A DNA stretch of 64,000 bases. Origin: Closterium sp. NIES-65 (taxonomy: Eukaryota; Streptophyta; Zygnematophyceae; Desmidiales; Closteriaceae). The stretch's first letter is position 1. Each line of letters opens with the position of its first letter. The DNA is taken from the NCBI GenBank assembly GCA_948144175.1, contig CANXME010002090.1:201501-265500 (forward strand), written 5' to 3'. The notes beneath the pieces are model-generated. The model had not been told where the DNA came from. It made no database searches and worked only from the letters and a program-made list of their open reading frames with translations. Positions 1 to 32,158 of this stretch are shown here, one piece after another. A program made the translations under genes and the position numbers.

Positions 1-3000
1 GCTGGTTAGGCTTGCTCGTTCTGTCCGCCACGTCCCTCCTCTACCTCCTCACCGCCCGCCTCCTCCGTGCCTGCATGGACCACACACCATCCACCGATCC
101 CCACTCCCCTGATACAAGTATCCACACCTCGACTGGAAGCAGCCACGCCTCCACCACCGCACCCTACACCTCCGCAACTTCTCCCCACACCTCCGCCACT
201 GCACTCCACGCCTCCACGATCACCACCTTCCCCGACATAGGCGCGGCAGCGTTCGGCCGCACAGGGCGCATACTTACATCTCTGGTGCTCTACGGGGAGC
301 TCTTCGCCGTGTCCGTCGAGCTGCTCATCCTCGAAGGCGACTCCCTCGCCTTCCTCTTCCCCTCCTTCGCCCCGCACGGCCTCAGTCTTGGCCCCTCCCT
401 CCGCCTGTCCGCCAACCAGGTGTGTTTTGAGGCGCCTCGAGCATAGACTCAACAGGCATGCTGACGTCTCCGGTGCTCTACGGGGAGCTCCTCTAGGGGA
501 AGAGGAAGGCTAGAGAGTCCCCTTCGAGGAAGGCTAGAGAGTCCCCTTCGAGGAAGGCTAGAGAGTCCCCTTCGAGGAAGGCTAGAGTGTCAGTGGAGCT
601 TCTCGTCCTCGAAGGGGACTCTCTAGCCTTCCTCTTCCCCTCGTTTCCTTCGCATGGCATTTCCCTGGGATCCTCGCTCCGCCTCTCCTTTTGAGTCGAC
701 TCAAAAGCTTCCCTTGGATCCTCGCTCCGCCTCTCCGCCTACCAGGTGAGTGTTCTGACGCGCCTTACAAGTTGTTCGGCCACGCTGGCCGCATGCTCAC
801 GTACGCCGCGCTATTCGCTTTTGAGAATTCTAAAACATGCTCACGTGCCTTGTGCTGTACGCTGCGCGATTCGTCGCCCCAGTCGAGCTGCTCAAGGTGG
901 CCTTTGAGTCAACTCAAAAGGCGTGCTCACATCTCTCCTCCTCTCTACAGGGAGCTCTTCGCCGCCCCAATCGAGCTGCCCATTCTCCAAGGCGAATTTA
1001 TGAAGGGATTCCCCTCCTTCGCTAGGCGAGGAAATCGCCTTCCTCTTCCCCTCCTTCTCCCGTGAAGTTAGGGTGTTTTTGAGACGTCTCAAAAACACCC
1101 TCACTTCACGTGGCTATTCTCCAAGGCGAATCAATGAAGGGATTCCCAGCTAGGCGAGGAAATCGCCTTCCTCTTCCCCTCCTTCTCCCCGAATGGCCTC
1201 CCCCTCGGCCGGCCCCACGCTCTGCCTCTCCGCCAGGTGTTTCTGATCGTCCCGTTTTAAGACGCCTCAATAAACGACCTCCCCCTTGGCCGCGTGGGTT
1301 TCTGATTTTCGCGTTTTGCGGTTCCTCAAACTCGCCTTGCTCTTCCCCTCCTTCGCCCCGCACCGCCTCCCCCTGAGCCCCTCCCTCCGCCTGTCGCCCA
1401 ACCAGGTGTTTCTGATCATCGCAGCACTGATTATGCTGCCCACAGTGTGGCTCAGAGAGATGTCTCTGCTCGCGTATGTGTCCGTGTCTGGGCTGCTTGC
1501 TGCGCTGGTCACAGTGGTGGTGAGAGTGGCTTGTGGCTTGTTAAGTGTCTACTGAAAACCCCCTGGGCCTCTCGATCCGCCTGTCGCCCAACCAGGTGTT
1601 TCTGATCATCGCAGCACTGATTATGCTGCCCACAGTGTGGCTCAGAGAGATGTCTCTGCTCGCGTATGTGTCCGTGTCTGGGCTGCTTGCTGCGCTGGTC
1701 ACAGTGGTGGTGAGAGTGGCTTGTGGCTTGTTAAGTGTCTACTGAAAACCCCCTGGGCCTCTCGATCCGCCTGTCGCCCAACCAGGTGTTTCTGATCATC
1801 GCTGCGCTGATCGTGCTGCCAACAGTGTGGTTACGAAAGATGTCTTTGCTCGCGTATGTGTCCGTGGGAGGGCTGCTCGCAGCGCTGGTCACGGTGGTGG
1901 GAGTGGCGTGGGTGGCGGCGATGGGGGCGGACGATGCAGGCTCTGCTGCTGCTTCTGCTTCTTCAACCGCAGCAGCAGCAGCAGCGGCAGCAGTGCAAGG
2001 GGAATCGGCGTTGCTGCGGGTGCAGGGAATACCAGTGGCGATGGGGATATTTGGGTTCTGCTTCTCAGGGCATGCAGTCTTCCCCACCATCTACCGCTCC
2101 ATGGACAAGCCACAGCACTACAACCGGGTGAGTGGGCGAGTGAGTGAGGCAGAGAGTAAAGAGTGGTGCATTGAGTCGGGGCATGCTGTGTTCCCCACCA
2201 TCTACCGCTCTATGGACAAGCCACAGCACCGGGTGAGTGAGTGAGTTTGTATCGAGACTGGTGCGGCACTTGTTCGTATTACAGGTTCTGTAACCCCCTG
2301 TTTTGGGTTCTTCTTCTCAGGGCATGCTGTCTTCCCCACCATCTACCGCTCCATGGACAAGCCCCAGCACTTCAACTGGGTAAGGGGTTGATGCCGCACT
2401 TCGTACGCGGTACAAGTGTTGTAACCCCTTGTGTTGATGTCTGCTTCTCGGGACATGCTGTCTTCCCCACCATCTACCGCTCCATGGACAAGCCCCAGCA
2501 CTTCAACTGGGTAAGGGGTTGATGCCGCACTTCGTACGCGGTACAAGTGTTGTAACCCCTTGTGTTGATGTCTGCTTCTCGGGACATGCTGTCTTCCCCA
2601 CCATCTACCGCTCCATGGACAAGCCACAGCACTATAACTGGGTGAGTGGGCGAGTGAGGGAGTCAGAGAGTAAAGAGTAGTGCATTGAGTCGGGGCATGC
2701 TGTGTTCCCCACCATCTACCGCTCCATGGACAAGCCCCAGCACTATAACCGGGTGAGTGGGCGAGTGTGTATCGATACTGGTGCGGCACTTGTGCGTATT
2801 ACAGGTTCTGTAACCCCCTGTTTTGGGTTCTGCTTGTCGGGCCATGCTGTGTTCCCCACCATCTACCGCTCCATGGACAAGCCACAGCACTTCAACTGGG
2901 TAAGGGGTTGATGCCGCACTTCGTACGCGGTACAAGTGTTGTAACCCCTTGTGTTGATGTCTGTTTCTTGGGACATGCTGTCTTCCCCACCGTCTACCAC

Positions 3001-30800: not shown

Positions 30801-32158
30801 CCCAGGTTGTTGACCCATGATGCTGATTGGCCGCGCGGTTCTGTTACTGCTGCTGCTGACGTGTCATTGCCTGCCCACAATCGGCGCGCTGCTGAGCCGA
30901 TGGGTGGAGCCGGCGCCAGGTCAGATGTCGCGGGTCGTGATTGGTTGGTGGATGAAATGTCCAAGGAGCGACGCGGGTCAGATTGATGCTGTGGTTATAA
31001 GAACGCGAGGGACGGAGAGGGACGAATGAGAGGGAGAAAGGAGAGAGACGAATGAAGGAAAGAGGGAGTCTTATGAGGCGCCTCAAAAACTAGTGAGGTT
31101 GGATTGATGCTGTGGTTATAGGAGCGCGAGGGAGGGAATTTCGAGAACCTCAAGAAGAGCGACGACAAAAGAAGCCAGATTAATGATGCGGTTATAAGAA
31201 CGCGAAGGAGGGAGAGGGACGAATTAGAGGGCGAGGGGAGAGACGAGCCTGAGGAAGAGGGGGAGGGAGGGGAGACAGAAATACGTGAGGGATCAGGAAT
31301 AATATAGCACGCCTGGGGATGTGGAAGGGTGTCCGGGAGAGAAACGAGACGGGGGAGATGGAGCAGGCGAAGAAGCGAGAGGGAGAGCCATGGAACAGAA
31401 GCTTTAAGACTGACGGTGAGATGACGGCGTGAGAGAGGGAAAGCGATGGTGAGAGGGCAGGAGGAGAGAGAGAGGGAGATGAGATGGCGCGTCAGGTAAA
31501 GAAAGCGACGGTGGATGCATGCGCAGCGGGAGAAAGATGTGGAGTGCGACAATGATAAAGTGAGTGCGGCGCGTCTCGCTTGCTTCGTTCCGACTTCTTT
31601 TGTTCTCGATACTGACCCATATTGCAATCAACTGTATCGGGTCACGTCTTTCGATAAAACAATTTGTCTCAGCCTGATATTTCATCAGATACGGACCAAC
31701 TACCAAATCACAAGACCAAAAAAAAAGAAACGTCGGCTTACCGAGGGTGAATCTCGTGCGGACGGAAATAGCTGCGAATCGTCGAAGGCGTCACCGCGCT
31801 TCCGAATAACCACCGGCTTTCCCGCCGAGTGATGCGCATCACCGCCTTTTGGACGCGAAACACCACCACTTGTGCTGCTACTACTTTTTATCGGCGACAA
31901 AGCGCTGTTCGGTGACACCTGGCTTTCCGACGAACCTCCGCCAATTCCGGCCGTCATTTGCAGCCCTGAACGTCTCCCTCCTACATGCGACGCAGCTGGA
32001 TTCGACGAGTTCGCGATGGGGACGACGCGAGACTCATCTTCTAGCGAGCCTGTTCTTAAATGGGTGAACTCCCGCGGGCCCTCCGGTGACAGCAGGCGTT
32101 TGTCGTGTCCTAAACCCTCCGCGCTTCGCCATGGGACAGGCGACACAGAGGACATCAT
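27405..32158 (-). CDS. Protein kinase with C-terminal U-box (PUB-type receptor-like cytoplasmic kinase)
   Basis: Three exons, 32158-31742, 30988-28025 and 27575-27405, each a multiple of three (139, 988 and 57 codons), give 1183 residues. The start is the first of two adjacent ATGs. Residues 1 to about 730 are low complexity (Ser, Gly, Ala; charged [16 protein letters not shown]). The kinase domain spans about 741-1098: [12 protein letters not shown] glycine loop, AVKRLEGG lysine, HRDLKPDN catalytic loop, DVG instead of DFG (usual in plant U-box kinases) and [18 protein letters not shown] Gly/Ala/Val repeat insert follows [11 protein letters not shown]. The U-box (CPLSQ joined to [20 protein letters not shown]) spans the last intron, so the protein probably phosphorylates substrates and acts as an E3 ubiquitin ligase. 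No N-terminal universal-stress domain is visible, although many plant relatives have one. Several degenerate copies of the last exon lie around the used one. Confidence 0.87.
30960..31235. repeat. Three copies of the kinase intron 1/exon 2 boundary with a palindrome
   Basis: GATTGATGCTGTGGTTATA (acceptor region of exon 2 on the minus strand, 30981) recurs at 31103 and, diverged, at 31179, each followed by GAACGCGAGGGA-like DNA. Between copies 1 and 2 lies TTATGAGGCGCCTCAAAAA (31071-31089), a palindrome of the family with core GCGC. Confidence 0.85.

Follow-up and report, generated by a model that had tools for sequence, protein, structure and literature searches.

Most examined copies of a short palindrome lie between direct repeats of host DNA in the nuclear genome of Closterium sp. 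NIES-65

A 64,000-nucleotide stretch of the genome of the green alga Closterium sp. NIES-65 (assembly GCA_948144175.1, contig CANXME010002090.1, positions 201,501-265,500; hereafter the window) carries a series of exact and decayed copies of one 18-base palindrome, TTTTGAGNNNNCTCAAAA (TTTTGAG-NNNN-CTCAAAA), in which two seven-base arms enclose a four-base core. Are these palindromes sites whose symmetry is kept or rebuilt in place, as a preliminary description of the window suggested, or are they insertions, and if so, how did they arise?

Abundance of the palindrome family

The window holds 19 matches to the family pattern with at most two mismatches (0.09 expected), a number reached by none of 100 shuffles. 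The arms are perfect in five of them (689, 1077, 8806, 12729 and 12798), and all 19 lie within the first 14.7 kilobases (kb) or at 31,071. In the whole assembly (874,075,685 bases in 2,400 contigs, compared with a published genome size of 876 Mb, PMC10407611), exact TTTTGAGNNNNCTCAAAA occurs 30,327 times and the reversed pattern 4 times. The nuclear genome of this alga holds about 30,000 copies of one tiny mirror-image sequence, and at both scales the palindromes are real and strongly in excess. A sequencing or assembly artefact was considered and rejected: the TCGA-core form alone is found 13,080 times against 0 for its reverse, tandem arrays of several periods exist, and the palindromes diverge together with the repeats that flank them. 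A viral or bacterial source was also rejected, as the 24-base form GACTTTTGAGNNNNCTCAAAAGTC matched 0 stretches in viral and prokaryotic contig collections (which may omit records close to that of the window).

Finer structure was studied in 296,678 bases of sampled DNA, part of which was chosen for carrying the palindrome. Twenty further 10-kb loci picked by contig number served as random loci, and exact copies beyond these and the window were drawn from the first entries listed for the genome (C6, C9 and C10), which is not a random sample of contigs. Among the non-simple palindromes with arms of at least 8 bases in this partly palindrome-selected DNA, 57 of 62 share the family centre.

Direct repeats of host DNA flank most examined copies

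Direct repeats of host DNA surround most of the copies examined, a feature that the preliminary description had missed. Our strict test called for an isolated, ungapped direct repeat closely hugging the palindrome and bounded on either side. Of 52 exact copies, 34 passed; of random places, 30 of 400 did so when taken from the same loci and 34 of 400 when taken from others. With seven more sites the count is 40 of 59, and for exact copies with no other palindrome within 150 base pairs (bp) it is 29 of 32. At C6:109299, 60 identical bases stand on either side of ACTTTTGAGTCGACTCAAAAGTC. Because most examined copies lie between host direct repeats, what had been regarded as a site becomes an insertion; that the palindromes are insertions between two copies of host DNA is well supported.

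Two other controls proved too lenient. In the first, random places within positions 1-16,000 of the window reached alignment scores of 88 (90th percentile) and 121 (95th percentile), palindrome sites scoring 49-116; gapped alignments in the window alone prove little, because random places in this repeat-rich region score so highly. In the second, 30-33% of random places passed on account of satellites, and the isolated-repeat test was used instead.

Thirty-three sites were clean (at most one palindrome mismatch, repeats at least 90% identical, insert of at most 45 bases). Their duplicated stretches measure 11-137 bp (median 35), some of the longest spanning array units, and their 66 target junctions carry no consensus (at most 0.11 bit at any position). 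Left and right arms, measured from the centre, show no correlation in length (rho = 0.03, p = 0.87). Over 49 sites, a greater number of palindrome mismatches goes with lower identity of the flanking repeats (rho = -0.32, p = 0.025), the pattern to be expected if a palindrome and its duplication arise at the same time and decay from then on.

Duplicated host DNA around a filler, without site preference, is what repair-made tandem duplications show. Fillers made by repair are expected to vary from event to event, whereas here the same inner arms recur in 30,327 places and it is the outer arms that vary. Target duplications of variable length, as seen here, are a feature of long and short interspersed nuclear elements (LINEs and SINEs).

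Palindromes and repeats in the window

The palindromes of the window and the repeats around them are as follows.

425-442: decayed palindrome, GCGC core, three mismatches
661-688 (+): left copy of a 28-bp direct repeat hugging the palindrome at 689; right copy 709-736, 96% identical (a gapped alignment of the same site pairs 661-687 with 709-735)
689-706: exact palindrome, TCGA core, within the insert 689-708
819-836: decayed palindrome, AATT core, two mismatches
902-919: palindrome, core TCAA (TCGA with one change), one arm mismatch
982-1060 (+): left copy of a direct repeat flanking 1061-1110; right copy 1116-1188, with one 6-base gap, because of which the ungapped strict test missed it
1061-1110: palindrome, ACGT core, 25-bp arms (50 bp); right side continues to CACGTGGCT
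1255-1272: decayed palindrome, core ACGC, two mismatches
1314-1331: decayed palindrome, core GTTC, two mismatches
3112-3129: palindrome, GCGC core, one mismatch; hugging repeat not found
4227-4244: decayed palindrome, AATT core, two mismatches; hugging repeat not found
8745-8802 (+): left copy of a 58-bp direct repeat around a four-palindrome cluster; right copy 8909-8966
8806-8823: exact palindrome, GCGC core, first in the four-member cluster
8843-8860: palindrome, GCGC core, two mismatches
8869-8886: palindrome, GCGC core, one mismatch
8890-8907: palindrome, GCGC core, one mismatch
8987-9004: decayed palindrome, AATT core, three mismatches, between exact 23-bp direct repeats 8951-8973 and 9011-9033
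9180-9197: palindrome, core AGGT, one arm mismatch
9256-9273: palindrome, AATT core, one mismatch, hugged by a 17-bp direct repeat
11412-11429: palindrome, TCGA core, two mismatches; hugging repeat not found
12729-12746: palindrome, exact arms, core TTGA (TCGA with one change), between direct repeats 12682-12722 and 12757-12797
12798-12815: exact palindrome, TCGA core, between direct repeats 12761-12795 and 12830-12864
14658-14675: palindrome, core GCGT, one arm mismatch; hugging repeat not found
31071-31088: palindrome, GCGC core, one mismatch, on the upstream side of the protein kinase frame 27,983-30,994 (-); no hugging repeat by the strict test

The positions first reported for these palindromes were right to about 5 bases (688 for 689, 3111 for 3112, 8844 for 8843, 8886 for 8890, 9251 for 9256, and 8982 for 8987, which has three mismatches), but those at 902, 1255, 1314, 9180, 12729 and 14658 had gone unlisted. 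The copy at 425 is present with three mismatches.

Cores and inner arms

The cores of the 52 exact sampled copies are TCGA (20), ACGT (13), GCGC (11), AATT (4), TTGA (2), AATC (1) and ACAT (1); several of these copies are members of tandem arrays and not independent. A small set of usually self-complementary cores had been described, and this fits 48 of the 52 but not all, the other four each being one substitution away from one of the four self-complementary cores. With the seven additional sites, 54 of 59 exact cores belong to these four, and a hand tally of 50 distinct genome places among those listed (of 30,327) gave TCGA 22, ACGT 12, GCGC 10, AATT 2 and others 4. Pairs of TTTTGAG and CTCAAAA lying 0-60 bases apart in the sampled DNA have a spacing of 4 in 52 cases and of at least 28 in 16, with none at 0-3 or 5-27 (interiors above 60 bases were not searched). 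Fifteen of the 16 wide pairs join arms of separate palindromes, and one joins a host CTCAAAA (L042).

Conserved inner arms and self-complementary cores could mark a binding or recombination site under maintenance, or hairpins in which one arm is copied to rebuild the other, and it would speak for such upkeep that outer arms differ between copies yet pair within a copy. The pattern of change argues otherwise. Among 74 palindromes with one of the four cores, changes in the seven-base arms fall on one side only 41 times, on both sides but differently 3 times, and in matched fashion, as in a maintained protein-binding palindrome, 0 times. The inner arms behave after birth as unconstrained sequence; since they decay one-sidedly and without compensation, the palindromes are not maintained sites. 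The copies also lie between host duplications, whose divergence their decay tracks. We therefore abandon the idea that symmetry is kept or rebuilt at each site, including the rebuilding of one inner arm from the other, which would have left matched changes, and consider upkeep of any kind highly improbable.

Outer arms

Beyond the 18 bases, arms vary in sequence among copies and pair within a copy at 77 of 99 positions. Copying, as originally proposed, thus fails for the inner arms and keeps room at birth for the outer ones; we take the within-copy pairing to reflect copying at birth, not later repair. Read by eye from the centre outward, the outer arm is CTCAAAAGTCACC in many TCGA copies and CTCAAAAGTCACTCC in several AATT copies, and in ACGT copies CTCAAAA is followed by 12 variable bases and then CACGTGGCT. 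For GCGC copies the eye finds no clear outer sequence, and the computed majority consensus is shorter in every family.

The ACGT form with CACGTGGCT at this one spacing accounts for 224 arms genome-wide (0 reversed), and at C62:1415204-1415263 both arms reach CACGTGGCT, giving a 60-bp palindrome. The 43 rows of this form for which letters were given comprise 26 distinct sequences, 22 of them with core ACGT, and 25 distinct 12-base middles, which are nearly free of G (6 of 300 letters).

Such an outer end could equally mark a defined mobile element, and it bears on the possibility of a non-autonomous DNA transposon of which only the two inverted ends are left, its enzyme being encoded elsewhere. 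Miniature inverted-repeat elements are short, have inverted ends, occur in many copies near genes and are flanked by direct repeats; they have an interior, and their target repeats, like those of cut-and-paste transposons generally, are of fixed short length. The Closterium family shares the inverted ends, the direct repeats and a copy number of about 30,000, and differs in that its repeats range over 11-137 bp. Its outer ends are ragged in the 33 clean sites, yet 224 arms reach CACGTGGCT at one spacing, and the sampled DNA shows no interior of 5-27 bases (the search ending at 60 bases). The wide variation in duplication length disfavours a classical transposon, the conserved ACGT outer end keeps the transposon reading alive, and on balance we judge it improbable.

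Tandem arrays and one-sided units

Units of duplication plus palindrome recur in arrays with periods of 37, 42 and 53. The insert L052 contains TCGACTCAAAAGTCACC twice, head to tail; array L059 repeats TCGACTCAAAAGTCACCTC[AG]TTA[CA]A; and array L058 repeats an arm and core without the partner arm. In all three, the head-to-tail or one-sided units begin at the palindrome centre. Genome-wide, an arm and TCGA core lacking the G of the partner arm occur in 542 places (2 reversed), which may include mutated palindromes; those read are L052, L058 and L059. No tail was seen. These concatemers and one-sided units are consistent with a template that was copied more than once or on one side only, or with slippage at a later stage.

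Regular arrays of palindromes or arms were also noted at C212:1531135-1532276 (step 123), C595:18900-19558 (about 34) and C16:109897-110170 (64), as if palindromes seed minisatellites.

Genes and retroelements

The first region of the window contains an amino-acid-transporter gene (Pfam Aa_trans within 1795-2118), a long frame without a Pfam match (14,760-16,031, minus strand) and a frame at 4894-5490 (minus strand) that has no Pfam match of its own. Of 33 protein relatives of the latter, 30 are named Closterium, the closest being from NIES-54 (94% identity over 79% of the query) and Naga37s-1 (91% over 99%), and 7 carry PF02469, which we take to be the fasciclin domain. The frame at 27,983-30,994 (minus strand) is identified as a protein kinase by Pfam.

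Copia-type domains occur in three places in the window (20,628-25,174, 41,938-48,795 and 52,345-57,711). No match with at most two mismatches lies between 14,675 and 31,071 or beyond 31,088, where these domains sit, in agreement with the reported absence from retroelements. Among the 20 random loci, five hold copies with at most two mismatches (L018, L025, L028, L031 and L033) and 10 contain retroelement domains (20 reading frames from 18 loci tested). Palindrome loci include non-retroelement domains (MutS in L028, GRAS in L033), and the palindromes of L025 and L031 fall outside the tested retroelement frame. Few or no copies thus lie in retroelement bodies in this small sample. The proposed bias towards genes agrees with the 20 loci; the sample is small, and young retroelements would look the same.

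An exon piece of the transporter gene containing CACCRTCTACCRCTC is repeated eight times between 2085 and 3010 (at 2085, 2196, 2337, 2468, 2599, 2710, 2857 and 2988), and none of the 19 window palindromes falls between these copies. By eye, the 60-bp duplicated stretch at C6:109299 seems, on the minus strand, to include both the end of an exon and a splice site, GTGAGT, in which case the insertion there might be spliced out. Long simple repeats, (CT)n and (AT)n, occupy 18,050-18,770 and 52,160-52,286 of the window, and most raw palindrome matches outside the family come from the (AT)n run. A different short inverted repeat at L038 972-1015 has 21-base arms (CCTGTTCGGTTCGCCTCGAAC and its complement) with two bases between them. 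The whole 10-kb sample L035 (1-10000) is open in all three forward frames and is rich in a short repeat like CTCCGCACTCAGATCC.

How the insertions may have formed

Our best reading, held tentatively, is copying at staggered breaks with annealing of self-complementary ends; the order of events, the copying of a template and its identity are what we infer. Two nicks on opposite strands, about 11-140 bases apart and without a preferred sequence, would produce a break with long overhangs, and fill-in of these overhangs would duplicate the host stretch on both sides. Before joining, each 3' end would be extended along one and the same short template. This template, either a small RNA or a piece of single-stranded DNA, would be expected to measure about 17-32 nucleotides and to read NNNN-CTCAAAA-... 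from a fixed 5' end (NNNNCTCAAAA). Each end would start at its own point on the template and both would run to the fixed 5' end; the outer ends of the arms would be ragged and unequal because the starting points differ. The last four bases made would be self-complementary (TCGA, GCGC, ACGT or AATT), so that the two ends could anneal and be sealed into an inverted dimer. The resulting unit of duplication, palindrome and duplication may later expand into tandem arrays. Tandem duplications do arise in cells from breaks whose ends protrude, and repair of such a break can yield a host duplication (PMC5730883).

The observations behind this reading are the long direct repeats around most examined palindromes, the fixed centre with its single spacing and four main cores, the ragged and uncorrelated outer ends, the target sites without consensus, the pairing of outer arms within a copy, and the head-to-tail or one-sided units; the palindrome has the form of an inverted dimer whose unequal halves meet at a self-complementary tetramer. 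A weak excess of bases shared with the host at the junctions also favours copying. Template-matching arms share at least one base with the abutting host end in 12 of 22 cases, compared with 32% by permutation (p = 0.008), and on average 0.73 bases compared with 0.39 (p = 0.005).

Several observations weigh against this reading. The test of microhomology is weak because 21 of 43 arms were dropped as not matching the assumed template, itself derived from the sites under test. Neither an RNA nor a DNA that could be the template was found, and the inferred end of the longer arm, CTCATTACACGTGGCT, occurs only twice in the genome. The outer arms vary so widely among copies that one common template is insufficient. 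If copying took place at one end alone, one-sided arms should be commoner than they are: of 30 CTCAAAAGTC arms in the sampled DNA, 29 are in clear palindromes and the remaining one is in a decayed palindrome. The strict repeat test was failed by 19 of the 59 exact copies (16 of them within 150 bp of another palindrome, mostly in arrays) and passed by only 10 of 25 window places with at most three mismatches. Duplication does not need a palindrome, because among 81 two-copy tandem duplications in the window and the 20 random loci, only 10 hold one (at most three mismatches) in their gap and 71 do not. The conserved outer end of the ACGT copies, which could equally mark a defined mobile element, belongs here as well.

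Two candidate templates were rejected. A common 32-base template ending in CTCATTACACGTGGCT is at odds with the two genome places at which that end is found. The 3' end of a transfer RNA (tRNA), or primer-binding site, was suggested by the TCGA unit TCGACTCAAAAGTCACC, which can be read as a T-stem and an acceptor stem ending in ACC; the ACGT and AATT arms do not fit it. In a scan of L001 and the 20 random loci, ARAGORN (bacterial setting) detected no tRNA, no genome-wide tRNA search having been made.

A close rival, nearly as good as copying though by itself still doubtful, is that a ready-made short palindromic duplex, formed either by dimerisation of a short single strand or by the opening of a hairpin, had its ends nibbled and was captured by end joining at staggered breaks. 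This would account for the fixed centre, the ragged and uncorrelated outer ends, the lack of a target consensus and the near-constant occurrence of the arm within palindromes in the sampled DNA, and it draws equally on the tandem duplications known from protruding-end breaks (PMC5730883). Copying better fits the 1-3 base matches at host junctions and the head-to-tail and one-sided units that start at the centre (L052, L058, L059 and the 542 places), although slippage or mutation could have produced the latter, and capture presupposes a source of such duplexes.

An enzyme-specific version of copying at staggered breaks is target-primed insertion by a LINE-like element, both ends priming on the same RNA tail (twin priming). 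Variable target repeats, the inverted-dimer structure, the 1-3 base junction matches and some one-sided copies would follow from it. We nevertheless find it quite improbable, given the lack of a target consensus, of any tail and, in the sampled DNA, of a longer element ending in the family arm.

A further possibility, which we consider unlikely, is a self-propagating palindrome with neither gene nor interior: a staggered break would be mended with a copy of some short transcript or strand of the host, whose self-complementary end would let the broken ends anneal, and each patch could be transcribed into further template, making it a parasite of break repair and not a transposon. If so, selection on the template alone would explain the persistence of only four self-complementary cores.

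Relation to known systems and significance

The organelles of the green alga Volvox carteri are rich in short dispersed palindromes (10-100 nucleotides) in introns and intergenic DNA, with copies in its nuclear DNA that were judged inert organelle transfers and make up about 0.06% of nuclear sequence (PMC2670323). Palindromes from the mitochondrion or plastid might likewise have been caught at nuclear breaks in Closterium. Volvox hairpins keep a loop, generally of 3-5 nucleotides (PMC2670323), whereas 48 of 52 exact Closterium copies are self-complementary through the centre; the Closterium copies also centre on one fixed point and carry little else, and an organelle origin seems very improbable. 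The main text of the Volvox paper contains 0 occurrences of 'target' or 'duplicat' (PMC2670323). Yeast mitochondrial GC clusters resemble the Closterium family in being short, palindromic and mobile-looking, in carrying terminal direct repeats and in having units that merge, and differ in being mitochondrial and in having direct repeats of only 2-3 bases (AG or ACT) (PMC4478555). In the protruding-end tandem duplications, as in the reading preferred here, the stretch between two opposite-strand nicks is duplicated; the available text of that report makes no mention of a recurrent genome-wide palindrome family as insert (PMC5730883). The initial statement that no described family matches holds, in that none was found to fit by the defining features tested. 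Among the listed entries of the open-licence literature, titles and opening parts of abstracts yielded no description of the family, and the main text of the Closterium genome-size paper has 0 occurrences of 'palindrom' (PMC10407611).

The insertions suggest that broken chromosomes are patched or invaded by a route not recognised so far. If copying at staggered breaks is right, a lineage close to land plants holds about 30,000 exact, and more decayed, copies of a recognisable repair patch. These would record thousands of natural break repairs whose relative age can be read from the divergence of the flanking repeats, and would show how stretches of tens of bases get duplicated inside genes. 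They may reveal a new minimal type of mobile element or a repair route with a dedicated template, and the question of what fills and duplicates plant break sites would become directly testable.

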